From Eubacteriaceae bacterium (GTDB taxonomy: Bacteria; Bacillota; Clostridia; Peptostreptococcales; Anaerovoracaceae), in contig CABIXY010000002.1 in NCBI GenBank assembly GCA_902362805.1, forward strand, positions 682,001 to 746,000: a stretch of DNA of 64,000 nt, read 5' to 3'. The translations under genes were made by a program, and so were the position numbers. Below, in pieces: positions 363 through 33,753 of this stretch. The notes beneath the pieces were generated by a model. It made no database searches. It was not told the origin of the DNA and saw nothing but the letters and a program-made list of their open reading frames with translations. The stretch's first letter is position 1. The number at the start of each line of letters is the position of its first letter.

Positions 363-454
363 CTAATGGACTTGCCCCAATTTACAAAGTAAAGTGCTGG
401 GAAATCCTTATGCTTTAACGCCCCGGCTTCAGTCGGCTAGGCGTTAGTCGTATA
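363..454 (+). repeat. Dispersed two-hairpin junction element, copy 1
   Basis: A 92-base element runs from CTAATGG to GTCGTATA on the plus strand and fills the spoIIIAB-spoIIIAC junction. Hairpin 1 has inner stem TTTAC-AAA-GTAAA and outer CCCA/TGGG. The invariant linker CCTTATGCTTTAA follows. Hairpin 2 has inner CCG/CGG and outer AACGCC/GGCGTT. Relatives occur at 22543-22594, 27225-27318, 27319-27407, 30314-30407 and 33709-33753. In the mRNA sense of the spoIIIA operon it lies just after the spoIIIAB stop and just before the spoIIIAC ribosome-binding site. Function unknown. Confidence 0.85.
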
Positions 455-455
455 G

Positions 456-977
456 TTAGATGAATACAATTGCTACGACTAAGCCGACAGAAACCCCCAT
501 TTTTCCATACATTCTGCCTTTTGTCTTGATGGACTCTTCTGCTTCAGCTACCTGTCTGTCTAATTGCATGTTCAGTAAACTGAAATGTTCCTGCTGCCTG
601 CTGAAATCGCTTTGTCCAAGAAAATCCCCACACTTTTTCATGATGGAGATATCTTCAAGGGTTAAAGATGAACCGCCGTATATATGATCCACGGCTGTTT
701 TCCAGATTTCTGCAATATTCATATTTTCAAGACTGTAAGCCGAAAGACATTCTCGGAGCAGAATCGTACGCTCCTTGTTATCTGCTGCCTCACTGGCCAG
801 CCTTTCAAAGATCTGGGGCAGAGGTTCCTTAAAATAACTCATTTCAGTAGAAATATGTACGAGAAGTTCTTTGAAGTCGACAAGCAGGATCCGCCGCCTC
901 TTAATCTCGGAAGCTTTATAAAAGCCGATGGTCGTACATGCAGCAAAGGCCATAAGGAGCCCTAAAAACTTAATCAC
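456..977 (-). CDS. spoIIIAB: Stage III sporulation protein AB
   Basis: This is SpoIIIAB of the mother-cell SpoIIIA complex. An N-terminal membrane anchor (IKFLGLLMAFAACTTIGF) is followed by a soluble helical domain with the family-typical RILLVDFKELLVHISTEMSYFKEPLP, shown here only as a description of the region at about residues 28-55, and a C-terminal membrane helix. I chose the GTG at 977 (173 residues, close to the usual 171) because GGGAGG lies 8 bases upstream and the frame then overlaps the end of spoIIIAA by 8 bases. The longer reading from 1013 would add an unlikely N-terminal extension inside spoIIIAA. Confidence 0.92.
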   Translation of the reverse strand: MIKFLGLLMAFAACTTIGFYKASEIKRRRILLVDFKELLVHISTEMSYFKEPLPQIFERLASEAADNKERTILLRECLSAYSLENMNIAEIWKTAVDHIYGGSSLTLEDISIMKKCGDFLGQSDFSRQQEHFSLLNMQLDRQVAEAEESIKTKGRMYGKMGVSVGLVVAIVFI

Positions 978-1848
978 GCAGCACCTCCCTGACTGTGCCA
1001 ACGGCGGGAACATCAGTGAGAAATATGATTACATTAAAAGTTTTATTCTCAATGAGCTCTATGATCTCAGAATTTTGCAGATCCGCAGTATCATTACCGT
1101 GGATTGTCGTGATCACTTTCACCCCGCAGTTTACACAAGTTTTAATTGCAGCAACATCCTCCTTCTTTCCAATTTCGTCAGTGATGATGACCTGGGGCGA
1201 CATAGAACGAATCATCATGATCATCCCTTCTGCCTTGGGACATCCGTCCAGCACATCTACCATCATACCGAAGTGATAGGAACTCACTCCGTTATACATG
1301 CCGGCAATTTCTGAACGTTCGTCACAGATGCCGACCTTGTAGCCTTTCGTGCTGATGTTTCTCGCGATATCACGAATCAAAGTAGTCTTTCCACAATTAG
1401 GCGGTGACACGATTAGGACGTTATTGAGACTTTTATCATCGTTGATAATCAGATGCATCAAGGTATCGGAACATCCGACAATTTCCTTTGAATATCTGAT
1501 ATTAAGGGAACTGATATCGCGAATCAGTGTTACCTTCCCTTTGTCTATTACAGCTTTTCCGCAGATGCCGACCCGGTGGCCTCCATCAATGGTGATGAAC
1601 CCTTTTGCCAGATCTTCTTCATAGGCGTAATAAGAAAATTTCATCAAATTATTTAACAGATTATTAATATCGCTGCCTTCTATTCTGCCTGACAAAGATA
1701 TTCTTTTTCCGCCAGAAAATACTTGGATTTCCCGGCCTTTGTACACCCGTACTTCTTCAATGGCTTCCTTTGTCCACTGATCCAAATTGGTGATCTGATG
1801 CTGAATCTTTGGCGGGAAGCATTGGAATACTTTTTCAAAATGATTCAT
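970..1848 (-). CDS. spoIIIAA: Stage III sporulation protein AA, secretion-type ATPase
   Basis: SpoIIIAA is the cytosolic ATPase of the SpoIIIA channel, related to type II/IV secretion and AAA ATPases. The Walker A motif SPPNCGKTT lies near residue 150, Walker B appears as VIITDEIG, and the conserved FITIDGGHRVGICG region precedes them. The ATG at 1848 (292 residues) follows GGACAAGGTAAGC and is preferred over an in-frame ATG at 1878, which has no ribosome-binding site and falls within a likely sigma-E -10 region. It is the first gene of the operon AA-AB-AC-AD, divergent from the MerR gene. Confidence 0.93.
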   Translation of the reverse strand: MNHFEKVFQCFPPKIQHQITNLDQWTKEAIEEVRVYKGREIQVFSGGKRISLSGRIEGSDINNLLNNLMKFSYYAYEEDLAKGFITIDGGHRVGICGKAVIDKGKVTLIRDISSLNIRYSKEIVGCSDTLMHLIINDDKSLNNVLIVSPPNCGKTTLIRDIARNISTKGYKVGICDERSEIAGMYNGVSSYHFGMMVDVLDGCPKAEGMIMMIRSMSPQVIITDEIGKKEDVAAIKTCVNCGVKVITTIHGNDTADLQNSEIIELIENKTFNVIIFLTDVPAVGTVREVLRD

Positions 1849-1868
1849 AAAGCTTACCTTGTCCTTTC

Positions 1869-1902
1869 CATATATCATATTCTGCGGACAGGCAAATATG
1901 AT
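1869..1902 (-). promoter_or_regulatory. Candidate sigma-E promoter of the spoIIIA operon
   Basis: On the minus strand an ATCATATT box (1895-1902), one base from the sigma-E -35 consensus GTCATATT, is followed about 14 bases later by an ATATGATAT segment that resembles the CATACA-T -10 box. It lies 20-50 bases before the ATG at 1848. spoIIIA operons are under sigma-E control in well-studied spore formers. The match was judged by eye only. Confidence 0.45.
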
Positions 1903-1942
1903 TAGGATTTTAAAATATTTTTTTCTGGCTAGAATCGTAACA

Positions 1943-1984
1943 CTCCACTATAACACCAGACTTTTCATTTGTGTTAAAATACTC
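1943..1984 (+). promoter_or_regulatory. Candidate MerR operator/promoter, site 1 (upstream of merR)
   Basis: The segment starts CTCCACTATAACACC and carries a spaced inverted repeat AACAC...GTGTT followed by TAAAAT (1975-1980), a plausible -10. A clearly related segment with a different but self-complementary pair of arms lies before the ABC genes at 2754-2795. The shared blocks are CTCCACT, CACCA and TTTTCAT. A regulator binding site recognised by the downstream MerR protein is the simplest reading; the -35 box is not consensus. Confidence 0.5.
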
Positions 1985-2007
1985 TAAGAAGTACGGAGGT
2001 AAGAAAA

Positions 2008-2751
2008 TTGAACACATATAAAACATCAGAAGTCGCAGAGATGATTGGTATCCATCCTAATACAGTCCGCCTATATGAGAAATTAGAATTGATTCCTAAA
2101 GCTCAGCGGCTTGCGAACGGTTATCGAGTCTTTACAGATTTTCACGTGGCACAGCTACGGCTTGCACGTATCGCCTTCCAAATTGAAGTCTTGCAGAATG
2201 GCTTGCGTAAGAAAGTCGTCGACATTGTAAAGGTTTCAGCAACTGGAGATTTTGATAGCGCACGCAGATTAACAGAAGAATATTTGAAACAACTCCGCAG
2301 GGAACGTTTACAGGCTGAGGCGGCAGTAAATATTACAGAGCGAATTTTATCAGGAGAACGGGTAGAAAATACGCATTTCATGAAAAGAAAAGAGGTGTCC
2401 GTTTATCTGGGGATTTCGATGGATACCCTGCGGAACTGGGAGATGAATGGCCTGCTGGCTGTAAAACGGAAAGAAAACGGTTATCGCGTTTATACCGATG
2501 AGGATTTGCAGCGCCTAACCATCATTCGCACCTTACGCGTTGCAAATTATTCTTTGGAAGCAATTCTACGCATGCTCTCTCAACTATCAAAAAATCCACA
2601 GGCTGATATCAGGGAACTACTCAATACACCCGATGAGGAAGCAAACATCATCACAGCTTGTGATAAACTAATTTCATCTTTGAAAGAGGCAGTAAAAAAC
2701 GCACAGTTGATGATTGAGATGCTGAAGGACATGAAGACAAAATTTAAATAA
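2008..2751 (+). CDS. MerR-family regulator with two MerR-type HTH domains
   Basis: This 247-residue regulator has two MerR winged-helix domains. The first spans about residues 4-72 (YKTSEVAEMIGIHPNTVRLY and the wing NGYRVFTDFHV). The second spans about 125-192 (MKRKEVSVYLGISMDTLRNW and NGYRVYTDEDLQRL). A helical linker joins them and a coiled C-terminal tail follows. It starts with TTG behind TACGGAGGTAAG. It precedes an ABC exporter on the same strand, and both units carry related dyad sites, so it probably regulates itself and the transporter. The duplication makes it act possibly as a built-in dimer. The effector is unknown. Confidence 0.88.
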   Translation: MNTYKTSEVAEMIGIHPNTVRLYEKLELIPKAQRLANGYRVFTDFHVAQLRLARIAFQIEVLQNGLRKKVVDIVKVSATGDFDSARRLTEEYLKQLRRERLQAEAAVNITERILSGERVENTHFMKRKEVSVYLGISMDTLRNWEMNGLLAVKRKENGYRVYTDEDLQRLTIIRTLRVANYSLEAILRMLSQLSKNPQADIRELLNTPDEEANIITACDKLISSLKEAVKNAQLMIEMLKDMKTKFK

Positions 2752-2753
2752 CC

Positions 2754-2795
2754 CTCCACTTTACCACCAATGTTTTCATCGGTGGTATTCTTTTG
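2754..2795 (+). promoter_or_regulatory. Candidate MerR operator/promoter, site 2 (upstream of ABC genes)
   Basis: The dyad ACCACC...GGTGGT with an 11-12 base spacer containing TTTTCAT lies between merR and the ABC ATPase gene. It aligns over its length with site 1 (1943-1984): CTCCACT, CACCA and TTTTCAT are identical, while the arms differ but remain complementary within each site. It could be a MerR operator or, in RNA, a hairpin. Confidence 0.5.
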
Positions 2796-2820
2796 TTGTA
2801 AAAGAATGGAGGTACAAATT

Positions 2821-3543
2821 ATGGAAGACATCATCAGAGTTAACAACCTGACCAAGACTTACGGAGCGCTGACCGCTGTGGACAAGGTGAATTTGTCTAT
2901 AAAATCTGGCACGGTATTCGGCTTGCTGGGCGCCAACGGAGCAGGCAAAACTACGACCATCGAGTGTATCCTGGGTACAAAAAAGGCTGATGGCGGAACT
3001 GTTTCGATTATGGGGATGAATCCCCATTCTGAACGAAAGAAATTATTTCAAAAGGTGGGTGTACAGTTTCAGGAGGCTGCTTACCAGGATAAGATTACTG
3101 TTGCTGAGTTATGTGAATTTACAACCGCACTCTATGAGAATACGACTGATTTTCTAGAACTTTTATCAAAGTTTGCTATTTCAGACAAGGTAAAAAGCCC
3201 TGTCAAAAATCTATCAGGCGGACAGCGGCAGCGGTTGTTCATCGTTTTAGCGCTGATTCCAAAGCCAGAGGTAGTTTTTTTAGATGAATTGACTACAGGG
3301 CTTGATGCCAGATCTCGCCGAGACGTTTGGAAAACGCTTGCAGGCTTAAAAGAAATGGGACTGACGATTTTTCTCACATCCCATTTTATGGACGAAGTGG
3401 AGGCTCTTTGCGATCAGATCTGTATCTTAAAAAGAGGGGTCATTGTTTTCTATGGCACTGTGACTGAAGCAATCAGGCAAAGCCCCTATGAGAAATTCGA
3501 AGATGCTTATCTATGGTTTACAGATGAGGAGGGATTAAAATAA
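2821..3543 (+). CDS. ABC transporter ATP-binding protein (ABC-2 exporter type)
   Basis: This 240-residue ABC ATPase has Walker A GANGAGKTT near residue 40, the signature LSGGQRQR, Walker B VVFLDE followed by TTGLD, and the switch histidine in TSHFMDE. I chose the ATG at 2821, which lies 8 bases after GGAGG; the longer reading from 2770 would run through the dyad site. It energises the permease encoded immediately downstream (stop and start overlap as TAATG). Exporters of this ABC-2 class usually move drugs, lipids or peptides; the substrate here is not evident. Walker B has the glutamate followed by LTT instead of PT. Confidence 0.93.
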   Translation: MEDIIRVNNLTKTYGALTAVDKVNLSIKSGTVFGLLGANGAGKTTTIECILGTKKADGGTVSIMGMNPHSERKKLFQKVGVQFQEAAYQDKITVAELCEFTTALYENTTDFLELLSKFAISDKVKSPVKNLSGGQRQRLFIVLALIPKPEVVFLDELTTGLDARSRRDVWKTLAGLKEMGLTIFLTSHFMDEVEALCDQICILKRGVIVFYGTVTEAIRQSPYEKFEDAYLWFTDEEGLK

Positions 3544-4286
3544 TGAAGACATTTAGAACAATGATGAAAATTGAACTGAAACTTTCACTGCGCGGTATGG
3601 ATATGCTCTTATTTGCAATCTGCATGCCCATCGTAGTATTGGCGATTTTAGGTATGCTTTACGGAAACAAGCCGGCTTTTGAAGGGGCAGACTACACTTT
3701 CCTGGAGCAGTCCTTTGGCGCACTGACTACGATATCGATTTGTGCAGGCGGTGTCATGGGATTACCTCTGGTGGTGTCCGATTACCGTGATAAAGGTATT
3801 TTGAAGCGATTTCAGGTGACACCGATCAGTCCCCTGCTGATTTTATCGGTACAAGTGGTGATTTACACCCTATATGCACTAATTTCTCTGCTGCTTCTCT
3901 ATCTCTGTGCTGCTATCTTTTTTGACTTCCACTTCCAGGGATCTTTGCTGGAATTTCTAGTCTATTATTTATTGGTAGCCTTATCCATGTTCAGCATCGG
4001 TATCATGGTAGGCGGTGTTGCACCTAATACGAAGACTGCCAGCATTGTGGCCAGCGTGCTCTATTTTCCCATGTTGGTTTTCTCCGGCGCTACCCTGCCC
4101 TATGAGATTATGCCAGCAGCGCTGCAAAAAGTTGCCAGTCTGATGCCGCTGACCCAGGGAATCAAGCTGCTAAAAAATGCCTCTTTGGACTTGCCAGCGG
4201 ACAATATTTTCATTCCCGCCCTCACCATGTCTGCCGTGGCACTGGTTTGTATCGGCATCTCACTTAAGTTTTTTAAGTGGGAATAA
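3543..4286 (+). CDS. ABC-2 type transporter permease
   Basis: This 247-residue integral membrane protein has about six helices and the ABC-2 family arrangement: a cytoplasmic N-terminus (KIELKLSLRGMDMLL), a helix at about 20-40, the conserved cytosolic loop DYRDKGILKRFQVTPISP, then four further helices and a final segment near 225-243. Its start overlaps the stop of the ATPase gene, so the two are translationally coupled and form one exporter. A strong terminator follows 20 bases after the stop. Substrate unknown; regulation is probably by the double-HTH MerR protein. Confidence 0.92.
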   Translation: MKTFRTMMKIELKLSLRGMDMLLFAICMPIVVLAILGMLYGNKPAFEGADYTFLEQSFGALTTISICAGGVMGLPLVVSDYRDKGILKRFQVTPISPLLILSVQVVIYTLYALISLLLLYLCAAIFFDFHFQGSLLEFLVYYLLVALSMFSIGIMVGGVAPNTKTASIVASVLYFPMLVFSGATLPYEIMPAALQKVASLMPLTQGIKLLKNASLDLPADNIFIPALTMSAVALVCIGISLKFFKWE

Positions 4287-4304
4287 ACACCTAGATTCTA
4301 AATC

Positions 4305-4346
4305 AAAAGAGAAGCATCGTCCAGAGGTCGATTTGCTTCTCTTTTT
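4305..4346. terminator. Bidirectional intrinsic terminator
   Basis: An AAAAGAGAAGCA / TGCTTCTCTTTT stem with a partly paired loop is followed by T-rich sequence on both strands. It separates the convergent ABC exporter operon (plus) and the blaI-blaR1-like operon (minus). Confidence 0.85.
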
Positions 4347-4364
4347 GTAAATTCATTCGCAGGT

Positions 4365-6092
4365 TCATTGCCGTTGGTAGAAATAGTCATCTTTTAGCGC
4401 AATCTCGTAATGTTCGCTGTCTTTTGTGGTCTCATTAAGACAATTAATACGTGCTTTCTTTTCATTCGTCGAAATTGTTACGATGCTTTTTTCTATTGTT
4501 TTATTGCTGTTTTTTAAATAGTGATGATAGGTTATGGTACTTTTGCCATCAGTGGATACTTGATAAACGTGGCGTACTCCGCCGATCAGTCGCTCGTTCG
4601 AACCTAACCATGTGTCGTAATCGCTGTACTTTTCAAAAAGAAAACCTATTACTTGGATGGGGAAATTGTAATCGGACAGATTTTTGAAGTCATAATCACC
4701 GTATCGGCCGATCTCAGCTTCTCTTCCTAGCTTGTCCAGATATGCCTTGGCATAAGCTTCCATCTGCGTTTCCAATTGGTCGGAGTAATCTTCACTATGT
4801 AATACTTTTTGATATAAATTCTGCGGAAATATCTCTTTTAAAACTTTTTCATAACTAAAATCACCGGTAGGATATTTTATTTTTTGGAAACGATAGCTTC
4901 CATTGTCTTTCGCCAGATAAATAACCACAGGAATTGCATTTGACTCGCTTCTCGCTAGGAATTTGTCGTCAAAAAAACCATACTTTCTAGTAGAGATGAT
5001 GGCATACACTTTTGTTATAGCGCCTTTTTCGTCTACTTTAAGAATTTTATGCCCTTCAGCGCTGCATTCAGCTTGTACAATATCACGATCTTTTTCTGAC
5101 AGTAATCCTCGGCTGATAGCAGCATCCATATCGCTATCTACTGCAATTTCTGTGGTCGCCAGGCTGGAAGGATTGGTCATAAAGCAGATGACAAATACCA
5201 TGGTAATCGCTGCGGTGAACGTAAGAATCGCCTTTGTTGGCTTATTGAAATGAAGTACATTGACAATGCGATCCTTGACGCCGATTTCACCAAAGGCTAA
5301 CGGACAGATGGACAGTGCCGAATGCTTTATAGAACAGTTCAGCAAAGCATTGGAATATTCTTTTCTCTCATCTATGGTCATATCTTTGACTACTTTTTCG
5401 TCGCAGGCAAGTTCCATATCACGACAGTACATGATAAATCCAACCCACACCAGCGGATTGAACCAGTGTAGCATCAAAATCAGATAAGCCAGCGGTTTTG
5501 TCACATGATCGAGACGTTTGATATGTGCCTCTTCGTGAGCGATAACGTGATGGAATTCTTCATCAATGGAGGCTGGCAGATAAATTCTGGGTCTGAAAAT
5601 CCCCAAGACGAAGGGGGTTTCAATCTCATGACAGAGATAAACCCTGCCCTGCAGCGATTTGGCATGTACTAACCGAATGTCCAATCTGACATAAGAAATT
5701 GCACAGAGGAGTGCCATCACTGCAATTCCCACAATCCAGGCAATCGACAGAATGCCCATATAGATCTGCATGGGATTTGCACTGGCCATCGTTGTCGCAC
5801 CGGAAGTTACCATAACTGAATTCACGGTATTGTCTACCATGCTGATACCGCTGTCGATGTGAGGAATGTAGTCATTCATAATATCTTTGGTAACCGTATG
5901 CCCGCTGGGAATGAGGCTGACTGCGCTTTCTAGTTCCAAAGGGACAGTCAGCCTAAGACCTGCTAACACCCAAAGGAGACAGATGTATTTTCGGGGTATT
6001 TTTTTAGCAAGGATTCTGATCAGCAGGACAGCTGCGATTAAATAGCTGGCTGTGATACTCATGTTCAGAAGTTTGATGAATAATTCGGTCAT
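4365..6092 (-). CDS. M56/BlaR1-like membrane metallopeptidase sensor
   Basis: The 575-residue protein has four membrane segments in its first ~330 residues and a zinc-protease motif HEEAH (in VIAHEEAHIKRLDH) with the downstream ELACDEKV, as in the M56 domain of BlaR1/MecR1. These proteases cleave or trigger loss of the partner repressor BlaI. The region after the last helix (about 240 residues) is not a penicillin-binding domain: I see no SxxK/KTG motifs, so the ligand is probably not a beta-lactam. The start at 6092 is chosen because GGAGG lies just upstream, inside the end of blaI; the stop-start distance is 1 base. Confidence 0.88.
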   Translation of the reverse strand: MTELFIKLLNMSITASYLIAAVLLIRILAKKIPRKYICLLWVLAGLRLTVPLELESAVSLIPSGHTVTKDIMNDYIPHIDSGISMVDNTVNSVMVTSGATTMASANPMQIYMGILSIAWIVGIAVMALLCAISYVRLDIRLVHAKSLQGRVYLCHEIETPFVLGIFRPRIYLPASIDEEFHHVIAHEEAHIKRLDHVTKPLAYLILMLHWFNPLVWVGFIMYCRDMELACDEKVVKDMTIDERKEYSNALLNCSIKHSALSICPLAFGEIGVKDRIVNVLHFNKPTKAILTFTAAITMVFVICFMTNPSSLATTEIAVDSDMDAAISRGLLSEKDRDIVQAECSAEGHKILKVDEKGAITKVYAIISTRKYGFFDDKFLARSESNAIPVVIYLAKDNGSYRFQKIKYPTGDFSYEKVLKEIFPQNLYQKVLHSEDYSDQLETQMEAYAKAYLDKLGREAEIGRYGDYDFKNLSDYNFPIQVIGFLFEKYSDYDTWLGSNERLIGGVRHVYQVSTDGKSTITYHHYLKNSNKTIEKSIVTISTNEKKARINCLNETTKDSEHYEIALKDDYFYQRQ

Positions 6093-6093
6093 G

Positions 6094-6456
6094 CTATTCC
6101 TCCTGGTATGAGTCAATCATATCCTTGATTTCTGCAATTTCCTCCTTCGAAAGAGACTGCTTTTTGGTGAAGGCTGCGATGAACTTCGGCAGAGAGCCAT
6201 CAAAAGTTTTCTCAACAATTTCATGGCTTTCGGCACATTGCACTTCTTCTTTAGAAACGAGAGACGTTACCACCGCACTTTCCGTCTTAACGACACCCCG
6301 CTCAGCCAGTCGTTTGATTACTGTATAGGTGGTCGATTTCTTCCATTGCAGCAGATCAGTGCAGAGTTTTGCCAGTTCACTGCTTTTGATCGGCTCGTGT
6401 TCCCAGAGAATTTGGCAGAATCGATATTCACTGTCAAAAATTTTTGGTATATCCAT
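6094..6456 (-). CDS. BlaI/MecI/CopY-family repressor
   Basis: This 120-residue winged-helix repressor has the family pattern: IPKIFDSEYRFCQILWEHEP at the N-terminus, then KSTTYTVIKRLAERGVV as recognition helix and wing, and a helical dimerisation tail. It pairs with the M56 protease gene downstream in the same operon. The ATG at 6456 follows GGGAGG by 8 bases; an alternative TTG lies two codons upstream. Two palindromes resembling operators sit in the promoter region (6500-6546). In this family, loss of the repressor by proteolysis opens the operon; the target genes here beyond the operon itself cannot be told. Confidence 0.9.
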   Translation of the reverse strand: MDIPKIFDSEYRFCQILWEHEPIKSSELAKLCTDLLQWKKSTTYTVIKRLAERGVVKTESAVVTSLVSKEEVQCAESHEIVEKTFDGSLPKFIAAFTKKQSLSKEEIAEIKDMIDSYQEE

Positions 6457-6499
6457 AAACAAAACCTCCCTTTTGATTCGTTTGAGGTGTAGAAAAAGG

Positions 6500-6558
6500 T
6501 CTAATGCATTAGAACTATCTTATACGAATAGTCTAACCTATTAGACCTATTGTGTCAA
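6500..6558 (-). promoter_or_regulatory. blaI-like promoter with two TCTAAT/ATTAGA-type operators
   Basis: On the minus strand TTGACA (6553-6558) is spaced 17 bases from TAGACT, a usable -10. Two palindromes flank or overlap it: TCTAATGCATTAGA (6500-6513) and GTCTAACCTATTAGAC (6531-6546). Both share the half-site TCTAA/TTAGA, differing from the classical BlaI TACA/TGTA half-sites. Autorepression by the downstream BlaI-like protein is the likely role. Confidence 0.65.
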
Positions 6559-6574
6559 GGCTTTTATTTTGCTG

Positions 6575-7165: not shown

Positions 7166-7225
7166 AGCCGTCTCCTATCTGTTTTCTTTATTTATTCTAA
7201 CATATTTTTATGCCTTTTTAAATAA

Positions 7226-7292: not shown

Positions 7293-7361
7293 TGCTGCTA
7301 TATTTATAATGTCTTTGCTGCTGATATTCATTTTCAGCGAAAGGCAAGTGAGGAGGAACTT

Positions 7362-22540: not shown

Positions 22541-22542
22541 TT

Positions 22543-22594
22543 TATACGACTTAATCCAGCCAATTTCTTGCAGAAATCGGGGCCAGGATCATTA
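22543..22594 (-). repeat. Dispersed junction element, copy 6 (internally deleted)
   Basis: Read on the minus strand this copy starts TAATGATCC, has hairpin 1 (GATTTCT-GCA-AGAAATT), and ends GTCGTATA. The central CCTTATGCTTTAA and hairpin 2 are missing, giving a 52-base variant. It begins in the stop codon of RNase J (TAA of TAATG). Confidence 0.65.
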
Positions 22595-24382
22595 TACGTC
22601 AAGGAATATCGGCAGTATAATCGGACTTCTCTTGGTCTTTTTAAAGATAAACTTGCGCAGTTCTTCTCTGACGCTGTTTTTTATACCGCTCCAATCTCGA
22701 TTGCCAGCTTCCAGACTATCTTCCAATGCCTGATGCGCAATTTTTTTCGCATCATTGATCAGATCTTCGTTTTCTCTGACATAAACAAATCCTCTGGATA
22801 CGATATCAGGACCGGATATAATTTCACCGGAAGCCCTGTCGATTGCCGACACCACGATGATCAGACCTGATTCTGAAAGCAGCTTTCTATCTCTCAAAAC
22901 GATGTTTCCTACATCGCCTACGCCCAATCCATCGACGAGGATGTCATCTGCATTGACGACGTTGCGAAATTTAACGGCGTTTCGTTTATCTACTGACAAT
23001 TGATCCCCGTTTGATAAGATGAAAATCCTGTCTTTTCTCATTCCTACGCTTTCTGCAATGACGGAATGCTGTACCAGATGCCTGTATTCACCGTGAACTG
23101 GCATGAAGAACTTCGGTTTGATCAAAGTGTGAATCAATTTCAATTCTTCCTGACAGGCGTGGCCAGATACGTGGATATCTGCGATATCGTTATAGATGAC
23201 TTCTACTTCTTTTTCAAATAATTTATTTACAACGCTGGATACTGTTTTTTCATTGCCAGGAACAGGTGAAGATGAAAGAATGACCATGTCCCCTTTTTTC
23301 AACTTGACGTTCCGATGCTCGTTGTTTGCCATTCTCGACAAAGCTGACATCGGCTCTCCCTGACTTCCTGTTGTAATAATGACTAGCTCGTTGTCCGGTA
23401 TGTTTCTCGTCTTATTCAGTTCAACATATGCGCCTGCAGGAATGTGCAGGTAACCGAGTTCGATGGCTAGAGTGACTACGTTTTCCATGCTTCGACCGGA
23501 AACGGCTACTTTTCGCCCGTATTTCACAGCAAGTTCGATGATTTTCTGTACTCGGTGGACATTTGAGGAGAAGGTAGCAATAATGATTCTATTCTTCGCT
23601 TCTCGAAATATTCCGTCCAATGTCTGGCCTACCACCTTTTCAGATGCTGTGTAACCTTTTCGCAGAGCATTGGTGCTGTCCGCCATCATCAAGTCTATGC
23701 CGCGTCTGCCGATTTCAGCGAATTTAGCGAGATCAATTGGTTCTCCATCGATGGGTGTATAGTCAATTTTAAAGTCGCCTGTGTGAAAGATAGACGCAAC
23801 AGGCGTCTGGATATACAGGCAGATGGCATCGGCAATGGAGTGCGTTGTCCTAATGGCTTCAATTTTGAATTCTCCTAATTTGAACTTATCCCCAGCCTTA
23901 ATTGTGTTCAGTTTCGCCTTCAAACCGTGTTCTTTTAACTTATTCTCAATCAGCCCCAGAGGAAGCCTGGTGCCGTAAATCGGAACATTGATCTGCTTCA
24001 GCAGGTATGGAACTGCTCCGATGTGGTCTTCGTGTCCGTGGGTAATGACCACACCCAAAATTTTGTGCGCGTTTTTCACCAAATAGCTGAAATCAGGAAT
24101 GACAACGTCGATTCCGTACATTTCATCTTCTGGGAAAGTCATACCACAGTCGATGAGAATCATCTGGTCTTTATACTCTAATACCGTCAGGTTCTTACCG
24201 ATTTCGTTAAGTCCTCCGATCGGTATTACTTTTAGATTGTCGGCTTTCTTACCCTGCTTTACAGGATTTTTCTTTGGTAGTATCTTATTGACGGTTTTTT
24301 GTTTAGCCGGCACTTCCTTTGTCGGTGGTTTCTTAACTGCAGCCTTTTTTACAGGCGGCTTTTTGCTATTGTAATCTCTCAT
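22592..24382 (-). CDS. rnj: Ribonuclease J
   Basis: This 596-residue RNase J has the beta-CASP metallo-beta-lactamase core: ITHGHEDHIGAVPYLL, then SGHACQEELKL, and PVHGEYRHL. RNase J is the 5'-to-3' exo/endoribonuclease of Firmicute mRNA decay. It carries an unusual ~48-residue basic Lys-Pro-Ala-rich N-terminal extension (KKPPVKKAAVKKPPTKEV) before the usual start at KVIPIGGLNEIGKN. AAAGGGGAGAAC precedes the ATG, 10 bases after leuS. Whether it is RNase J1 or J2 cannot be told here. Confidence 0.95.
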   Translation of the reverse strand: MRDYNSKKPPVKKAAVKKPPTKEVPAKQKTVNKILPKKNPVKQGKKADNLKVIPIGGLNEIGKNLTVLEYKDQMILIDCGMTFPEDEMYGIDVVIPDFSYLVKNAHKILGVVITHGHEDHIGAVPYLLKQINVPIYGTRLPLGLIENKLKEHGLKAKLNTIKAGDKFKLGEFKIEAIRTTHSIADAICLYIQTPVASIFHTGDFKIDYTPIDGEPIDLAKFAEIGRRGIDLMMADSTNALRKGYTASEKVVGQTLDGIFREAKNRIIIATFSSNVHRVQKIIELAVKYGRKVAVSGRSMENVVTLAIELGYLHIPAGAYVELNKTRNIPDNELVIITTGSQGEPMSALSRMANNEHRNVKLKKGDMVILSSSPVPGNEKTVSSVVNKLFEKEVEVIYNDIADIHVSGHACQEELKLIHTLIKPKFFMPVHGEYRHLVQHSVIAESVGMRKDRIFILSNGDQLSVDKRNAVKFRNVVNADDILVDGLGVGDVGNIVLRDRKLLSESGLIIVVSAIDRASGEIISGPDIVSRGFVYVRENEDLINDAKKIAHQALEDSLEAGNRDWSGIKNSVREELRKFIFKKTKRSPIILPIFLDV

Positions 24383-26861: not shown

Positions 26862-26871
26862 ATCGCTTTTC

Positions 26872-27213: not shown

Positions 27214-27224
27214 TCAATCTCTCC

Positions 27225-27318
27225 TTAATGGACTCGTCCCAATTTACAAGGTAAATTGATGGAGAGTCCTTATGCTTTAAACACCCAAATCTTTGATTTG
27301 GCTGCGTTTTGTCGTATA
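27225..27318 (+). repeat. Dispersed two-hairpin junction element, copy 2
   Basis: 94 bases, TTAATGG to GTCGTATA. Hairpin 1 is CAATTTAC-AAG-GTAAATTG flanked by TCC/GGA. The linker is CCTTATGCTTTAA. Hairpin 2 is CAAAT-CTTTG-ATTTG with AAAC/GTTT outside. Its mRNA-sense end lies next to the rsfS ribosome-binding site. It is in tandem with copy 3. Confidence 0.85.
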
Positions 27319-27407
27319 ATGGGGTTGCCCCAATTCGCAAAGCGAATTGCTGGGAACTCCTTATGCTTTAACGCCCCAGCTTTAGCTGGTCAGGCTTTCG
27401 TCGTATA
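27319..27407 (+). repeat. Dispersed two-hairpin junction element, copy 3
   Basis: 89 bases (91 counting the TA shared with copy 2). Hairpin 1 is CCCCAATTCGC-AAA-GCGAATTG...GGG. The linker is CCTTATGCTTTAA. Hairpin 2 is CCAGC-TTTA-GCTGG with GCC/GGC outside. Its end overlaps the yqeK reading frame: the last residues YTTKA and the stop of YqeK are encoded by the element end. Confidence 0.85.
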
Positions 27408-27959
27408 CTTCATAAAATAATCTCTGGCAAGCAGTGTATCCTGATCTAAATAGTTTCCTTGTCCCTGCACGTATTCTATGGTTCTAGTCAAAGATAAGAG
27501 ACATGCCTCATTCAAATCGTGTTTAGCGGCTTCTCTGAGTGCGTCCACGCCGGGATAATTTCTATTGGGTTCGATGGCATCGGCGATGTATATGATTTTT
27601 TCTAATAGTGACATCCCTGGCCTTCCCGTCGTGTGATAACTGACCGCATTGATGATATCCTCGTCTTCAATATGATAGTCTCGCTTCATGATGACAGCTG
27701 CGATTTTACTGTGAGCGAGATTACAGTTGTTCAGATATTTTTTGTCTAAATGCAGATGTTTGATATAGTAATTGAGCACATCTTCTGAAACGCCGCGGTA
27801 CATATCGTGAAATAAGGCTGCCAGTTCAGCCTTGTCCACATCGGCTCCATATTTTTCGGCTAAAACGATCGCAGTCTTTCTGACTCCTTCTGTATGAATT
27901 TTTCTTTTCTCAGAAAAATTCTTTTCTATATAGCTATTTATAGAGTCCGTGTTCATCAA
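27390..27959 (-). CDS. yqeK: HD-domain Ap4A hydrolase-like protein YqeK
   Basis: This 189-residue HD-superfamily phosphohydrolase has H...HD...D pattern: HTEGVRKTAIVLAEKYG, ALFHDMYRG, LAHSKIAAVIMKRDY, and IIYIADAIEPNR. YqeK hydrolyses Ap4A symmetrically and is normally encoded next to nadD and rsfS, as here. It overlaps nadD by 26 bases. Its C-terminal residues (YTTKA) come from the end of the adjacent junction element, suggesting the element arrived at the gene end. Confidence 0.92.
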   Translation of the reverse strand: MMNTDSINSYIEKNFSEKRKIHTEGVRKTAIVLAEKYGADVDKAELAALFHDMYRGVSEDVLNYYIKHLHLDKKYLNNCNLAHSKIAAVIMKRDYHIEDEDIINAVSYHTTGRPGMSLLEKIIYIADAIEPNRNYPGVDALREAAKHDLNEACLLSLTRTIEYVQGQGNYLDQDTLLARDYFMKYTTKA

Positions 27960-28536
27960 TATACCTTTCTATCTGTGTAGGAACTAAGCTTTCTATGCTC
28001 TGTCCAGATCTGATGTTATTTTTTATCTCTGTCGATGATACTTCAACAATTTCATTGTGAAGCATCCTGATCTCGGCATTGTATTTCTCTTTCAGTCTTT
28101 TCGCTGTGTTTTCTGTCTCACTGATCTTGTATCCCGGCCTGATGCCGATGATAAACGCGAATTCACGCAGCAGTTCTTTCCCCTTGTACCATTCTTCCAA
28201 TGTCAAAAAGGAATCGGTGCCCAGAATAAAATAGAACTTATCATCTGGATACTCCTTCTGCAATAGTTTCAGGGTCTTATAAGTATAAGAAACCCGCTGG
28301 CTGAAAGCTTCGATGGTAGAAACACGAAGCTTTCTATTTTCTTCAGCTATCAGGCGGACCATGTTAACCCGGTCCTCTTCTGATGCCATTTCTCTGCCGA
28401 TTTTAAAAGGCTGAACCTTTGTCGGCAGAAGTATGACTTCTGAAAGATCAAATTCTTCGATGGCAGCTTCTGCAATGGACAGATGACCAAAATGAAAAGG
28501 ATCAAAGGTGCCGCCTAATATACCTATTTCACTCAT
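27934..28536 (-). CDS. nadD: Nicotinate-mononucleotide adenylyltransferase
   Basis: This 200-residue nucleotidyltransferase has the family motifs GGTFDPFHFGHLSIAEAA at the N-terminus and VSSTEIKNNIRSG near the C-terminus (the ISSTxIR motif). It makes nicotinic acid adenine dinucleotide in NAD synthesis. TGAGGTAAAA precedes the ATG, which is just past the aspS stop. Confidence 0.95.
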   Translation of the reverse strand: MSEIGILGGTFDPFHFGHLSIAEAAIEEFDLSEVILLPTKVQPFKIGREMASEEDRVNMVRLIAEENRKLRVSTIEAFSQRVSYTYKTLKLLQKEYPDDKFYFILGTDSFLTLEEWYKGKELLREFAFIIGIRPGYKISETENTAKRLKEKYNAEIRMLHNEIVEVSSTEIKNNIRSGQSIESLVPTQIERYIDEHGLYK

Positions 28537-28538
28537 TT

Positions 28539-30302
28539 TTACCTCAAGCTAATTCCAAGTTCTTCAAGTTGTCCTTCTTCTACAACACCTGGTGCCTCAC
28601 AGACCATGCACTGCGCGTTCTGATTTTTCGGAAAAGCCATGACTTCTCTGATGCTGTGCTCACCGCTGAGCAGCATGACCAGCCTGTCCAGGCCGTAGGC
28701 CAATCCGCCGTGTGGCGGTGCACCGTATTTGAAAGCTTCTAGCAGAAAACCGAACTTTTCCTCGCATTCTTCATCTGTCAGTTTCAATGCTTTGAACATT
28801 TTTGCCTGCAGATCTCCTTCGTGGATTCTGATGCTGCCTCCGCCTAGTTCTACACCGTTTAAGACGATGTCATACGCATCTGCCTTGACCTTTTCAGGCA
28901 TTGTGTCAAGGAGCGGGATATCTTCCTGTTTTGGGTGTGTAAACGGATGATGCATCGCTTTCAGTTCTCCGGTTTCGTCGTCTTTTTCAAACATCGGGAA
29001 GTCTGTTACCCACAATAGATGAAACTGTTTGTCATCGAGAAGCCCCAAGATACCAGCAACATGTCTTCTGAGGAATCCCAGGCTGTCAAAGACGACTTTT
29101 GTTTTATCAGCAGCAATCAGAATCAAATCGCCGCTTTTAGCGCTAAAAACGGCTGCAATTTCAGAAAGCTGCTCTTGGTTAAAGAACTTATTGACAGACG
29201 ATTTAATTTCATTTTCTTCAACTCTGATCCAAACAAGCCCCTTTGCACCGTAGTGTTTTGTCTGTTCGGTTAATTTGTCGATATCTTTTCTGCTGAATTT
29301 TGCACTGCCGCCATCGATACAGATTCCTCTGACATCACCGCCACCAGCGAGAGCGTCTGCAAATACCTTGAATTCCGTGTCAGCTACGACTGCATTGAGA
29401 GATTTCAGCTCAAAGCCAAAACGGGTGTCTGGCTTATCGCTGCCGTAGCGTTCCATAGCCTCATCATAGGTCATTCTCGGAAATGGTGTCTCAATTTCAA
29501 TATCCATCAACTCTTTGAACAATCGCTGCAAAAAACCTTCTTGCATGGCGATGACGTCATCTTGATCGACGAAGGACATTTCCAAGTCAATCTGAGTGAA
29601 TTCCGGCTGTCTGTCAGCACGCAAGTCTTCATCTCGGAAACATTTTGCAATCTGCATATAACGATCACATCCGCTGACCATCAAAAGTTGTTTAAATAAC
29701 TGAGGAGACTGGGGTAATGCGTAAAAATGCCCCTGGTTGACTCTGCTGGGAACCAGGTAATCTCTCGCTCCTTCCGGCGTAGATTTAATGAGAATCGGTG
29801 TCTCAATTTCTGTAAAGCCGTTTTCATCAAAATAGTCTCTTGCAAGTTTCGTCACCTGGTGACGAAAACGCATATTCTCCTGCATCTTGAGCTTACGTAA
29901 ATCCAAGTATCTATATTTCAATCTCAGATTGTCGTCTACCTTATCGTCGTCTTTGATATAGATCGGGGGTGTTTCAGACTGAGAATACAATGCCAGATCT
30001 TTGGCAAAGACTTCTATTTCGCCTGTAGGCAGATTTGGATTCTTTGATGCTCTTTCTTTGACGATACCCTTAATGCCGATAACATATTCACTGCGCAGGG
30101 CTTCTGCCTGTTCAAAGACCTCTTTAGGAATAGTATCGTCAAAAGTAATCTGAACGATTCCTGTTTTATCTCGTAAATCAACGAAAATGAGGCCGCCAAG
30201 ACTTCTCTGCTTGGCTACCCATCCGTTGAGTACGACTTCTTCATCGACATTTTCAATATTTAAATTTCCACATAGGTGGGTTCTCTTAAATAACTCTGAC
30301 AT
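28539..30302 (-). CDS. aspS: Aspartyl-tRNA synthetase
   Basis: This 587-residue class II synthetase has an N-terminal OB anticodon-binding domain (about 1-105), motif 2 CFRDEDLRADRQPEFTQID, the bacterial GAD insertion domain (about 280-410), and motif 3 GLAYGLDRLVMLLSG. Bacterial-type length. GGGAGCATGAA precedes the ATG and abuts junction element copy 4. It follows hisS in the same order seen across Clostridia. Confidence 0.97.
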   Translation of the reverse strand: MSELFKRTHLCGNLNIENVDEEVVLNGWVAKQRSLGGLIFVDLRDKTGIVQITFDDTIPKEVFEQAEALRSEYVIGIKGIVKERASKNPNLPTGEIEVFAKDLALYSQSETPPIYIKDDDKVDDNLRLKYRYLDLRKLKMQENMRFRHQVTKLARDYFDENGFTEIETPILIKSTPEGARDYLVPSRVNQGHFYALPQSPQLFKQLLMVSGCDRYMQIAKCFRDEDLRADRQPEFTQIDLEMSFVDQDDVIAMQEGFLQRLFKELMDIEIETPFPRMTYDEAMERYGSDKPDTRFGFELKSLNAVVADTEFKVFADALAGGGDVRGICIDGGSAKFSRKDIDKLTEQTKHYGAKGLVWIRVEENEIKSSVNKFFNQEQLSEIAAVFSAKSGDLILIAADKTKVVFDSLGFLRRHVAGILGLLDDKQFHLLWVTDFPMFEKDDETGELKAMHHPFTHPKQEDIPLLDTMPEKVKADAYDIVLNGVELGGGSIRIHEGDLQAKMFKALKLTDEECEEKFGFLLEAFKYGAPPHGGLAYGLDRLVMLLSGEHSIREVMAFPKNQNAQCMVCEAPGVVEEGQLEELGISLR

Positions 30303-30313
30303 TTCATGCTCCC

Positions 30314-30407
30314 TTAATGGCGCTTGTCATCATTTCGCAAAGCGAAGCAGATGGAAGGCCTTATGATTTAACTCCCCAGCTTTAGCTGGATAGGAGTTGG
30401 TCGTATT
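30314..30407 (+). repeat. Dispersed two-hairpin junction element, copy 4
   Basis: About 94 bases, TTAATGG to GTCGTATT, filling the hisS-aspS junction. Hairpin 1 is TTCGC-AAA-GCGAA with CATC/GATG outside. The linker reads CCTTATGATTTAA. Hairpin 2 is CCAGC-TTTA-GCTGG with AACTCC/GGAGTT outside, where copy 1 has AACGCC/GGCGTT: a compensatory pair. The final A overlaps the hisS stop. Confidence 0.85.
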
Positions 30408-31659
30408 ATTTTGCTAATTCTTCTAGCAGGTCATCCAATTTAACCTGACGCTGCTGTGATGTTGCCATTTCTTTGATGGATACGACACCCTCTGTCAATT
30501 CATTATCACCGATGACTACGGTATATTGCGCATCTAATCTATCGGCATACTTGAACTGTCCTTTAATATTTCTGGCTAAAGTGTCCATTTCGGCTTTGAC
30601 ACCCTTTTTGTGAAGATCCCTCAGCAGCTTCAAGCCGAATGCTTTTGCATGATCGCCCATGACAGCGATGAAAGCTTTCAAAGGCTCAGGCTGCGGGATT
30701 TCTACGTTATTTTCTTCCATGAGCATGATCAGTCTTTCAATGCCCAACCCAAATCCCACACCTGGAATCGGAGGTCCGCCGATCTCCTCAATCAGATGAT
30801 CATACCTGCCGCCGCCGCAAACAGTTCCTTGGGTTCCGTTGCTGTCGGTGACAAATTCAAAGGCGGTCTTTGTATAATAGTCAAGACCTCTGACGATTCT
30901 AGGATCTACGACGTATTCGATACCCATGGCATCCAGGTTCTTCTTTACATCTTCAAAAGCATCCGCACATTCATCGCACAGATAATCAATCATGTTCGGT
31001 GCATCTTTTACTAATTCTTGACAGATTTCTGATTTGCAGTCCAAAATTCTCATCGGATTTCTCTCATATCTGTCTTTGCACGTATTGCACAGCTGATCAT
31101 AAACTGGTTCTAAAAACTTTCTCAAGGCTTCTCTATGGTTTTTTCTGCACTCTGGACAGCCTACGCTGTTAATTCGCAGCTGAATGTCCTTGATTCCCAT
31201 CTCGTGGAGGAAATCATAACCGAGACAGATAACGTCAGCATCGGCCAGCATATTGGTCGTGCCGAAAATTTCGATTCCGAACTGGTGGAATGCTCTCAGT
31301 CTGCCGGACTGCGGCTTCTCGTATCTGAAGCAAGGTGTGATATAGTAATACTTGGTCGGTTGGACTTCTGCATACTGCTTGTGTTCGATAAACGCTCTTG
31401 CCACTGGTGAAGTTCCTTCAGGCTTTAAGGTAATGCTTCTGTTGGCATAGTCGTTGAATGTATACATTTCTTTCTGCACGATATCTGTGGTATCGCCTAC
31501 ACCTCTCTGAAAAAGTTCTGTATGCTCAAAAGCAGGAGTTCTGATCTCTTTAAAGCCATATTTGTCACAAATCTCAGAGAATTTCTTTTCTACGTAATGC
31601 CATTTGTACACCTGTGACGGTAACGTATCTTTTGTTCCTTTTGGTGCAATAATTGCCAT
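30406..31659 (-). CDS. hisS: Histidyl-tRNA synthetase
   Basis: This 417-residue class II synthetase has motif 1 near EIRTPAFEHTELFQRGVG, motif 2 TPCFRYEKPQSGRLRAFHQF, the histidine-specific GRYDHLIEEIGG and YYTKTAFEFV, motif 3 GFGLGIERLI, and a C-terminal anticodon-binding domain. GGAGGTATAAAA precedes the ATG; it lies 2 bases after hemZ. Confidence 0.97.
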   Translation of the reverse strand: MAIIAPKGTKDTLPSQVYKWHYVEKKFSEICDKYGFKEIRTPAFEHTELFQRGVGDTTDIVQKEMYTFNDYANRSITLKPEGTSPVARAFIEHKQYAEVQPTKYYYITPCFRYEKPQSGRLRAFHQFGIEIFGTTNMLADADVICLGYDFLHEMGIKDIQLRINSVGCPECRKNHREALRKFLEPVYDQLCNTCKDRYERNPMRILDCKSEICQELVKDAPNMIDYLCDECADAFEDVKKNLDAMGIEYVVDPRIVRGLDYYTKTAFEFVTDSNGTQGTVCGGGRYDHLIEEIGGPPIPGVGFGLGIERLIMLMEENNVEIPQPEPLKAFIAVMGDHAKAFGLKLLRDLHKKGVKAEMDTLARNIKGQFKYADRLDAQYTVVIGDNELTEGVVSIKEMATSQQRQVKLDDLLEELAK

Positions 31660-31661
31660 TT

Positions 31662-33023
31662 TTATACCTCCATAAATAAATTCTTTTCTTTTCTATCCAG
31701 CATTTCGTCAATACGATTTATATACTCCTGATAGTTGGTTACGTTGGGCACCCTCTCCAGGCGGTTTTCAGCCGGAAAATACACCTTCGTGATACCACCG
31801 GCACCCAGTGCGATAATCGTCTGATGCTCGTCCATAATTCGTATATTATAAATGCAATCCTTATCTTTTTTACAATACCCCGTATTCTCAAAAGCACCAG
31901 CCATGTGTTTCTGCCTGTACATGTAATACGGTATGTATCCTGCCTCTTCTAGAATCTTGCGGCCCTTCCCTAACATCTCAGCGACAATTTCCGCCTGCTT
32001 ATAATGAAAGTCTTTGTCGATGTCTTTTAGTCTGGACGCTCTTTTCACAGCCAGGCAATGGACTGTGATATTCTCAGGCGCAAGAGACAGCAATTCTCGC
32101 AAGGTTTCTAGAAAGTCTTCAGCATTTTCTTCTGGCAGTCCGGCAATCACGTCAGCATTGATAGACTGAAAATGATGTTCTTTCGCAAGGGCAAAGGCTT
32201 TGGTGATGTCTTCTGGTTTATGGCCGCGGCCGATTAAATCCAGGGTATGCTGCTTCATAGACTGGGGATTAATGCTGATGCGTTCTATCCCCGCGCTTTG
32301 AATCACTGCCAGTTTTTCTTCTGTAATCGTATCGGGTCGTCCTGCTTCGATTGTGAATTCCTTTAATTGTGATAAATCAAAAGAGTCCTTAATATGTTTT
32401 ATTAATTCTGCTAGCTGACGCGCACTGAGGGTTGTCGGGGTTCCGCCGCCGATATAAATGGTTTCTGCGGTGAGTCCGCATTCCTTCATCCTTCTGCCGG
32501 TATATTCAATTTCCTTATGTAATGCGGTTAAATATTTAGCGATTTCAATGTCTGGAACCTGGTTTGAGGCAAAAGAACAATAAACACACCTGGTGGGACA
32601 AAAAGGAATCCCGATATAGATACCAGCAGATTTTTCTGGTGCCATGCCACAGAAATCCTTTTGATGTAAATAGGTATCCATAATGAGCTGTGCTTTTTCT
32701 TCACTGATATAATATTCTTCTTTTAAAATCCGCAGTGTCAGGTCGACATCCTGCAGATTTTCATAAAGCTCTCCACAGAGTTTTACCGGTCTGATTCCCG
32801 TCAGAATACCCCACTCAGGCTGCTTCCCTGTCAGAACTGATAATTTATCATAAATCTGTCTGTAGATCGTACGTTTCTCAGAAAAGTTTTCTTCGTTAAA
32901 CACCAGATCTACGTCCATCTCATCTTCTTCTATCAGCACGTATTGATCTGGCCGTAAAAAAATCTTAATCAGTTCGTCGAGCAGATATTTCTTCTCAAAG
33001 TTCAATATCTTTATTTTATACAA
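31662..33023 (-). CDS. hemZ: Radical SAM coproporphyrinogen III oxidase-like protein HemZ
   Basis: This 453-residue radical SAM protein has the cluster motif CPTRCVYCSF preceded by YIGIPF, TIYIGGGTPTTLS and SINPQSM, and an N-terminal ~140-residue domain typical of HemZ. HemZ is described as an oxygen-independent coproporphyrinogen oxidase homologue. The start is uncertain: I favour the TTG at 33023, which follows AAAAGGAG and gives an 8-base overlap with the MBL hydrolase gene. The ATG at 33083 would overlap it by 68 bases. Confidence 0.88.
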   Translation of the reverse strand: MYKIKILNFEKKYLLDELIKIFLRPDQYVLIEEDEMDVDLVFNEENFSEKRTIYRQIYDKLSVLTGKQPEWGILTGIRPVKLCGELYENLQDVDLTLRILKEEYYISEEKAQLIMDTYLHQKDFCGMAPEKSAGIYIGIPFCPTRCVYCSFASNQVPDIEIAKYLTALHKEIEYTGRRMKECGLTAETIYIGGGTPTTLSARQLAELIKHIKDSFDLSQLKEFTIEAGRPDTITEEKLAVIQSAGIERISINPQSMKQHTLDLIGRGHKPEDITKAFALAKEHHFQSINADVIAGLPEENAEDFLETLRELLSLAPENITVHCLAVKRASRLKDIDKDFHYKQAEIVAEMLGKGRKILEEAGYIPYYMYRQKHMAGAFENTGYCKKDKDCIYNIRIMDEHQTIIALGAGGITKVYFPAENRLERVPNVTNYQEYINRIDEMLDRKEKNLFMEV

Positions 33024-33633
33024 AAGGATTGTGCTCCTTTTCGTAGGCAATCGTAGTTTCTCCCATATGTCCAGGCAGAACAACGGTATTATCAGGAAGT
33101 ACGAATAGTCTTTCCCGAATTGATTTTACAATCTCGTTAAAATCTCCGCCATAGAAATCAGTCCGACCGATTGATGCTCTGAACAAGGTGTCACCGCTGA
33201 AAACGTACCCTGGAGCGATAATGCACATGCCGCCTTTTGTATGACCAGGTGTATGAACAAAGGTGAGTTCAGTCGTCCCGATCATCATGGTTTCCCGATC
33301 TTTCACATAGATGTCAGCATCTACTGTTACCGCGTAACCGCAGATACCCATGGATTCATTGAGGTTCGCATCCAAGAGCATTTCTTTTTCCCCTTCAAAA
33401 GCGATAATCTTTGCATCGGGAAAATCCTTCTTAAAATCAGCAATTCCGCTGATATGGTCGCCATGACCGTGGGTCAAAATGATATATTCGACAGAAACGC
33501 CTTCCTGCTTTGCTTTTTCGGTCAACTGAGCGCTGTATCCGCCGGGATCAACGATAAACCCTTTTTTTGTTTCGTCATATGCCAGGTACGTATTTACCTG
33601 GATTGGACATGTTAAATATCTATAAATTTTCAT
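33016..33633 (-). CDS. MBL-fold hydrolase, glyoxalase II-like
   Basis: This 205-residue metallo-beta-lactamase protein has ILTHGHGDHISGI, VHTPGHTKGGMCI and VFSGDTLF, the metal ligands of the glyoxalase II group. Such genes sit between rel and hemZ in many Clostridia. It probably hydrolyses a small thioester; the true substrate is unknown. The upstream 120-base gap holds copy 5 of the junction element in reverse orientation. Confidence 0.9.
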   Translation of the reverse strand: MKIYRYLTCPIQVNTYLAYDETKKGFIVDPGGYSAQLTEKAKQEGVSVEYIILTHGHGDHISGIADFKKDFPDAKIIAFEGEKEMLLDANLNESMGICGYAVTVDADIYVKDRETMMIGTTELTFVHTPGHTKGGMCIIAPGYVFSGDTLFRASIGRTDFYGGDFNEIVKSIRERLFVLPDNTVVLPGHMGETTIAYEKEHNPFV

Positions 33634-33708
33634 ATGTTGGTCTCCTTCTATTTATATGACTAAATCTATCCAATCGAACTTGCACATCATATGCCTGTTC
33701 TCTTGTAG

Positions 33709-33753
33709 ACTTAAAGCATAAGGAATTCCCCACAAATTGAGGCAATTCCATTA
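33709..33753 (-). repeat. Dispersed junction element, copy 5 (truncated, opposite orientation)
   Basis: Read on the minus strand it begins TTAATGG, in which TAA is the rel stop codon. A degenerate hairpin 1 and the intact CCTTATGCTTTAA follow, then GTC TACAAG where the second hairpin is missing. It is opposite to copies 1-4 and lies after a stop codon, as does copy 6. Confidence 0.65.

Follow-up and report, generated by a model that had tools for sequence, protein, structure and literature searches.

Short two-hairpin repeats, probably mobile, that abut Shine-Dalgarno sequences and stop codons in Emergencia timonensis and related bacteria

The 64,000-nucleotide stretch analysed here (the window; Eubacteriaceae bacterium, family Anaerovoracaceae, assembly GCA_902362805.1, contig CABIXY010000002.1, positions 682,001 to 746,000) holds six related repeats of a two-hairpin element, and its comparison with other genomes of the family points to a real and apparently undescribed family of mobile, structured repeats that land precisely and in an unusual place, beside a ribosome-binding site or in a stop codon. 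From the comparison of sequences, we regard the mobile nature of the family as very probable, and on balance we favour a single-strand, guide-based route for its movement. Mobile DNA in tightly packed operons must spare the genes around it, and this family suggests a simple way of doing so; its guide-like pairing also makes it possible to test whether an element that lacks its own enzyme selects targets through base pairing, and the missing enzyme is a concrete discovery target in a gut-bacterial family.

Five of the six repeats in the window are full length (90-100 bp) and one has an internal deletion. Read along the element strand, the order of parts is TAATGG, hairpin 1, CCTTATGC(TTTA), hairpin 2, and GTCGTA(T), and comparison of the copies places the limits of the unit at about TAATGG and GTCGTA(T), plus or minus one or two bases; the boundaries first proposed were dropped once the copies had been read directly. 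Both hairpins are alike and tend to a bulge on the 3' side, with GCCCC...GGCTAGGC visible by eye in many copies. Copy 1 (364..453, plus strand) fills the junction between spoIIIAB, an assignment that scores under that model's cut-off, and spoIIIAC; it consists of the left end TAATGG, hairpin 1 at 368-407, the centre TTATGC at 408-413, hairpin 2 at 417-445, and the right end GTCGTAT, and the spoIIIAC Shine-Dalgarno sequence (358..363, minus strand, ACCTCC on the plus strand) lies directly against its left end. Copies 2 (27226..27316) and 3 (27317..27406), both full length and on the plus strand, form a tandem between yqeK and rsfS with the joint GTCGTA|TAATGG: copy 2 lies directly upstream, in the sense of the gene, of the rsfS Shine-Dalgarno sequence (CTCTCCT on the plus strand), and the right end of copy 3 overlaps the final bases of yqeK. 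Copy 4 (30315..30405, plus strand, full length) lies between the hisS stop and the aspS Shine-Dalgarno sequence, so that the contact with the ribosome-binding site of the next gene, predicted for spoIIIAC, rsfS, and aspS, can be read at all three places. The remaining two are on the minus strand and meet stop codons, as had also been claimed: the left end of copy 5 (22543..22594), which keeps its left end, hairpin 1, and right end and is without centre and hairpin 2, supplies the stop of the RNase J gene (22592-24382), next to ylbF, and that of copy 6 (33654..33753, full length) gives the relA stop codon TAA, next to a metallo-hydrolase gene. The tandem joint, for example at window 27314-27322, reads GTATAATGG, which contains a sequence identical to the -10 promoter hexamer.

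That all six places named in the original prediction hold related sequence is borne out by direct reading, by the model R1, and by a shuffle control. R1, which was built partly from four window copies, matches 27226-27318, 364-454, 30315-30407, and 33653-33753 (minus), each at E <= 5.2e-10, and matches 22541-22594 (minus) weakly (E=0.28); the copy at 27317-27407, which shares two bases with its neighbour, is absent from the R1 list and was read directly. A pattern made of both ends and the centre, written after the copies had been seen, has 4 matches in the window, whereas 200 block shuffles give 0.005 on average. Some descriptive details had to be corrected: there is one shortened copy and not two, 33709-33753 being half of the full-length copy at 33654-33753, and the six copies differ somewhat in their ends. 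The left core common to them is TAATG(G/A); the right end reads GTCGTATA in copies 1, 2, 3, and 5, whereas copy 4 has GTCGTATT and copy 6 has GTCATATA. The sequence CCTTATG(C/A)TTTAA does stand between the hairpins in five of the six copies.

The compensatory changes that had been noticed in the stems extend well beyond the window. Across 20 copies, 16 of the 25 predicted pairs show such a change, and in the covariation set from Emergencia timonensis SN18 (G001), which comprises 59 matches from fetched stretches, 55 of them distinct and weak matches to E 1 included, 93.5% of cells are paired and double changes affect 22 of 25 pairs. Cells with double changes number 253 there against 74.6 in shuffled data (0 of 500 shuffles reached the observed value) and 18-36 when the partners are slid, these controls serving as a guard for an alignment that was fitted to the model and so leans towards it. 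Drift with pairing kept had been taken as a sign of selection on structure; the covariation behind that statement is strong, and a selected mRNA structure is unsupported, as discussed below.

Further copies among relatives, to which the original prediction had looked together with covariation, are numerous. Bases 1-63087 of the window align with a single stretch of G001 in 13 syntenic blocks, at 79-91% identity except for one short block at 96%, and the source of the window would appear to belong to the same genus as Emergencia timonensis. G001 contains at least 70 copies (all 70 scored candidates matched), many of them in tandem arrays, and arrays span 1 to about 11 units. Within the family, 49 of 349 genomes, G001 included, have a match, with 9 matches in G205, and the 28 matching genomes in an order-level sample of 393, whose non-family share is not given, are all among these 49; because no more than 70, 12, or 10 candidates were scored in any one genome, the copy numbers are minimum values.

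Orthologous junctions, the other comparison on which the first reading had pinned its hopes, are found in filled and empty forms. The hisS-aspS junction carries the element in the window and G001 and is empty in all 12 of the other near relatives (G002-G013), as well as in G018 and G022, and the empty junctions of those 12 keep a GGAG-type Shine-Dalgarno sequence of their own. At the RNase J junction, the empty form of G001 reads GACGTA^TAAAATTGC, as against GACGTA, element, TAAAGTTGC in the window; this site is occupied in the window, in G012, and, as a short remnant, in G008, and empty in G001 and the others read, with G005 left out, its gene being cut. The site at relA is filled in the window, G001 (a deletion remnant), G012, G008 (partly deleted), and G005, and empty in G006, G010, G003, and G007, which in the tree used for both sites (HisS, RelA, and RNase J) branch between or beside occupied clades; with occupancy scattered in this way, either the place was hit twice or copies were cleanly lost. 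Eight G012 sites were also queried against G008, and of the six with an ortholog (84.6% identity; two had no match) four are occupied in both genomes and two are empty in G008: at L104/L204 (rpoA-rplQ by eye) the Shine-Dalgarno sequence, and at L107/L210 (after an MBOAT-like gene by eye) the stop TAA, is present in the empty form. L105/L202, occupied in both, has two units in G012 and one in G008. Among G012-G005 pairs, L104/L205 is occupied, L107/L207 (70% identity) looks empty, and L108/L203 is not alignable across the site. The filled and empty pairs can be explained without a target-site duplication. The spoIIIAC, rsfS, and aspS sites are common to the window and G001, the rsfS array being longer in E. 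timonensis and its spoIIIAC site being occupied with nested inserts; the differences in array length and hairpin sequence between the two point to probable recombination among copies. G001 also has four tandem units at about 8016-8387 of L097 (GTATAATAGTTCC...GGAAAGAACTATTGAATCACATGC...), with none in the window there.

The precision of the landing place is best seen in the 42 arrays of G001, of which 27 have a Shine-Dalgarno complement (CCTCC, CTCCT, or CTCCC) immediately next to the left end, the background for that contact being 1.2% (same sequence, bases ending in T; binomial p 6e-42). For most of these arrays a simple open reading frame caller puts a gene start on the opposite strand 10-17 bases off, with a few distances deviating where the caller chose another start. 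The other 15 arrays are mixed: L063, L072, and L084 (9742) adjoin pyrimidine runs of a similar kind that fall outside the criterion; L077, L089, and L095 start at the TAA stop of a same-strand gene, like the relA and RNase J copies of the window; L081 (3001) comes after an old right end; and L062, L069, L071, L076, L078, L083 (3001), L088, and L096 belong to neither class or are weak matches. Most copies lie in one orientation, directly 5' (in the sense of the gene) of a Shine-Dalgarno sequence that is also present in empty relatives, and the stop-codon copies start in the TAA of the stop, which the element's own end restores. The left flanks vary (CTCC, CTCCT, GAGT, CGTA, CCAT, GTTC, and others), and there is no constant target tetranucleotide. 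An earlier reading, which assigned the TAA of every left end to the host DNA, was dropped: TAA is still found in the right flanks at relA and RNase J, possibly as the old stop codon, and a tandem joint in G373 reads TGC|AATGG. Landing beside a ribosome-binding site or in a stop codon would leave both flanking genes working, and for that reason copies could accumulate in housekeeping operons. At about 1459-1515 of L013, between a spoVAD-like gene (by eye) and its neighbour, hairpin 1 alone is left, still against the Shine-Dalgarno sequence.

A second element type, type B (TGAAGCCC...CATGCAAG...TTTACTGC; also written TGAAGCC...TTTACTGC), has the same two-hairpin plan and is found inside hairpin 1 or 2 of copies of the present repeat (type A), in the opposite orientation and at CCAAT^C, at five loci (L112 3144-3230, L113 3124-3213, L115 3074-3161, L116 3070-3158, and L136 3114-3202); for L112, L116, and L136 the site can be read uninterrupted in an intact type-A relative, by eye without duplication. 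At the E. timonensis spoIIIAC junction, a copy at about 13436-13786 of L100 is interrupted by a further hairpin repeat (GGGAGACCTAACCC...GGTAGGTCCCC...).

These insertions bear on a rival explanation, an ordinary miniature inverted-repeat transposable element (MITE) moved by a DDE transposase, for example of the IS630 type, with a TA target duplication written TA-ATGG...GTCGTA-TA. The left end does read TA, the right flank often opens with TA, and the RNase J and relA pairs, in which a few bases can be assigned either way, allow a short repeat, readable as TA, on both sides; the nested type-B insertions, however, show no duplication at CCAAT^C, no terminal inverted repeats are seen by eye (AATGG at the left; ATACGAC for the right end in reverse complement), Shine-Dalgarno sites combine a constant left TA with a variable right flank, and the orientation to the target is strongly preferred, so that we judge this origin unlikely. 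The MITE-like ERIC, RUP, and bcr1 elements share with the present repeat that they are short, structured, intergenic, and mobile, but they have terminal repeats and target duplications, which are not seen here.

The same landing pattern is relevant to the possibility that the repeat is a cis-acting mRNA element (processing, stabilising, or riboregulatory) which, whatever its origin, is kept at operon junctions. Its exact position beside the Shine-Dalgarno sequence, its occurrence in housekeeping and sporulation operons, and the pairing kept at the orthologous and diverged hisS-aspS site of the window and G001 are what such an element would display. The orientation of the element strand, however, speaks against a riboregulator: at Shine-Dalgarno sites that strand is antisense to the mRNA, at stop-codon sites it has the sense of the mRNA, and an RNA function tied to one strand would hardly survive the change; the hisS-aspS junction is empty in the 12 other near relatives, and arrays have no fixed length. 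A near-invariant T.G pair between centre and right end, described below, would moreover be a mismatch in the antisense transcript and pairs on the element strand only. Three leaders were folded: hairpin 1 is predicted to form in the rsfS leader, with the Shine-Dalgarno sequence open, and in the aspS leader, but is lost in the spoIIIAC leader, where the Shine-Dalgarno sequence is paired. RNA-level effects of single copies are possible, and we hold the mRNA explanation of the family to be very improbable. In Rfam, no family matched the repeat in the window at gathering scores, and a search of three copy-bearing E. timonensis loci at E up to 5 returned one match, outside the repeat; a known structured RNA family is ruled out by these searches. 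Of the three options originally left open, the mobile element has thus gained from filled and empty junctions, nested inserts, tandem arrays, and dispersal, and the riboregulator has lost ground.

If the repeats are mobile, the pairing of their ends suggests how they might move. TATGC of the centre pairs with GTATA of the right end, in a helix for which 95.7% of cells are paired and just 2 of 4 pairs show double changes, in one sequence each; the T.G wobble within it is present in 49 of 53 G001 cells and in 39 of 43 cells elsewhere. TTA of the centre can pair with TAA of the left end, and this pairing excludes the one between centre and right end. Among nine loci of G007, four (L118, L119, L120, and L122) combine the centre TTGTG with a left CAATGG and a right GTACA, three (L117, L121, and L124) have TAATGG at the left and T at the right together with the centre TTATG, and the remaining two are of the other element type; this matched change of the centre and both ends is suggestive of a guide, and no stronger than that because it comes from a single genome. 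Distant family members likewise shift centre and right end jointly (TTATGCA/CTGCAT and TTATACA/CTGTATG). We infer that the repeat would move in folded, single-stranded form, with a transposase acting in trans to cut it, much as IS200/IS605 and REP (repetitive extragenic palindromic) elements do, and that the central TTRTGC may serve as one guide for both ends, namely GTAY of the right end and, in competition with it, YAA of the left end. That these are non-autonomous, gene-less mobile repeats of ~90 bp which travel in this way is the account that we find somewhat better than even.

The plan of IS200/IS605 elements is approached in several respects: hairpins lie near both ends, the last bases of the right end find their partner in a sequence 5' of the right hairpin, a target duplication is not required, and the orientation to the target is preferred. 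In contrast to those elements, the repeat contains no transposase and has no recognisably related one nearby, and it prefers the complement of the Shine-Dalgarno sequence as its target. IS200/IS605 elements are described as carrying their left guide on the 5' side of the left hairpin and as using a target tetranucleotide that is conserved (PMC6006769); the right end of the repeat fits that plan, and the left end does not.

Several observations weigh against the single-strand, guide-based account. The left partner of the repeat lies 3' of hairpin 1, with one centre for both ends, and its variable flanks contain no constant target tetranucleotide, both unlike IS200/IS605. Guide matching is imperfect in a mechanical count of 124 pattern matches, false ones included: with A in the centre, T is found at the left in 88 of 104 and at the right in 86 of 104, and with G, C is found at the left in 4 of 8 and at the right in 7 of 8. 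The excess of G.T over A.C outside the guide pair, itself a weak test, is modest (43 v 30 for A3; 35 v 18 for A4). Movement was read from sequence comparison, and transposition itself was not observed. The empty site of L104/L204 has some 20 further base differences, and its edges are not clean, and the RNase J difference could reflect precise loss through its short flanking repeats. Four of the five junctions occupied in the window are also occupied in G001 (relA as a remnant), and because the two share sites and G001 adds none in this stretch, their copies look mostly old, so that recent movement is not shown.

The search for a mobilising enzyme tells in the same direction. G001, the genome richest in copies, has no Y1 match at E<=0.001, and two below threshold. 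Y1_Tnp is above cut-off in 7 of 13 near genomes (G002, G005, G007, G008, G013 with two, G012, where it has an internal stop, and G006, where it is a contig-end fragment) and not in G001, G003, G004, G009, G010, and G011. The complete Y1 loci read are ordinary IS200s, and the IS200s of G002, G005, G007, G008, G012, and G013 differ from the repeat in their ends (by eye) and lack an adjacent R1 match. A Y1 match is also present in 12 of 24 further element-bearing genomes of the family, including the RAYT-like proteins of G227, G206, and G259; with the RAYT profile, 20 of the 21 genomes tested, G001 among them, gave no match, and G373 gave one decayed fragment. An IS200 or a RAYT as visible mobiliser is thus ruled out by these searches and by the differing ends; no mobilising enzyme was found with the Y1 and RAYT searches, other transposase families not having been searched, and the mobiliser may be lost, too diverged, or of another kind. 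RAYT-like genes elsewhere in the family lie at L241, L242, and L252, the first two between other inverted repeats holding GGGACGGTTC.

A lost enzyme is also what would be required if the repeats were a REP/BIME family moved by a RAYT (TnpA-REP) that has disappeared from most hosts. The resemblance to REPs, REPINs, and BIMEs is considerable: they are high-copy extragenic hairpins without a gene, with bulges, compensatory changes, and tandem or alternating clusters (here alternating in orientation with the second element type), and other genomes of the family do encode RAYT-like proteins. REPINs have been described with tandem arrays and compensatory changes (PMC3116915). The present unit, in contrast, has by eye no GTAG, GGAG, or CGTC tag, GGAG occurring solely as the host Shine-Dalgarno sequence outside it, and it consists of two direct, not inverted, hairpins; the copy-rich genomes tested lack a RAYT, and RAYT-like loci show no R1 match. 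Tagged REPs are reported to sit near the 3' end of the upstream gene, with a variable distance to the downstream one (PMC3733652), the reverse of the present case, where the repeat sits at the 5' end of the downstream gene. We therefore think a RAYT origin quite unlikely. A new gene-less single-strand class, with one guide for both cleavage ends, aimed at the complement of the Shine-Dalgarno sequence, and served by an enzyme other than a recognisable Y1/IS200 or RAYT transposase, can be put forward tentatively, as a possibility that we ourselves doubt. The literature searched, which included the accessible portions of PMC3733652, PMC8266576, PMC3116915, and PMC6006769 and from which subscription papers were mostly absent, gives no account of this repeat or of a hairpin element abutting Shine-Dalgarno sequences.

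Two minor observations concern other features. Another short tandem repeat (GCATTAAGCAAAAAGGCAGATGTGGAGTGAATCTGCG...), unrelated by eye to the one described here, lies at about 1450-1800 of L170 in G001. On the minus strand of the window, RNase P RNA (class A) and 6S RNA are found at 57121-57467 and 49633-49814, respectively.

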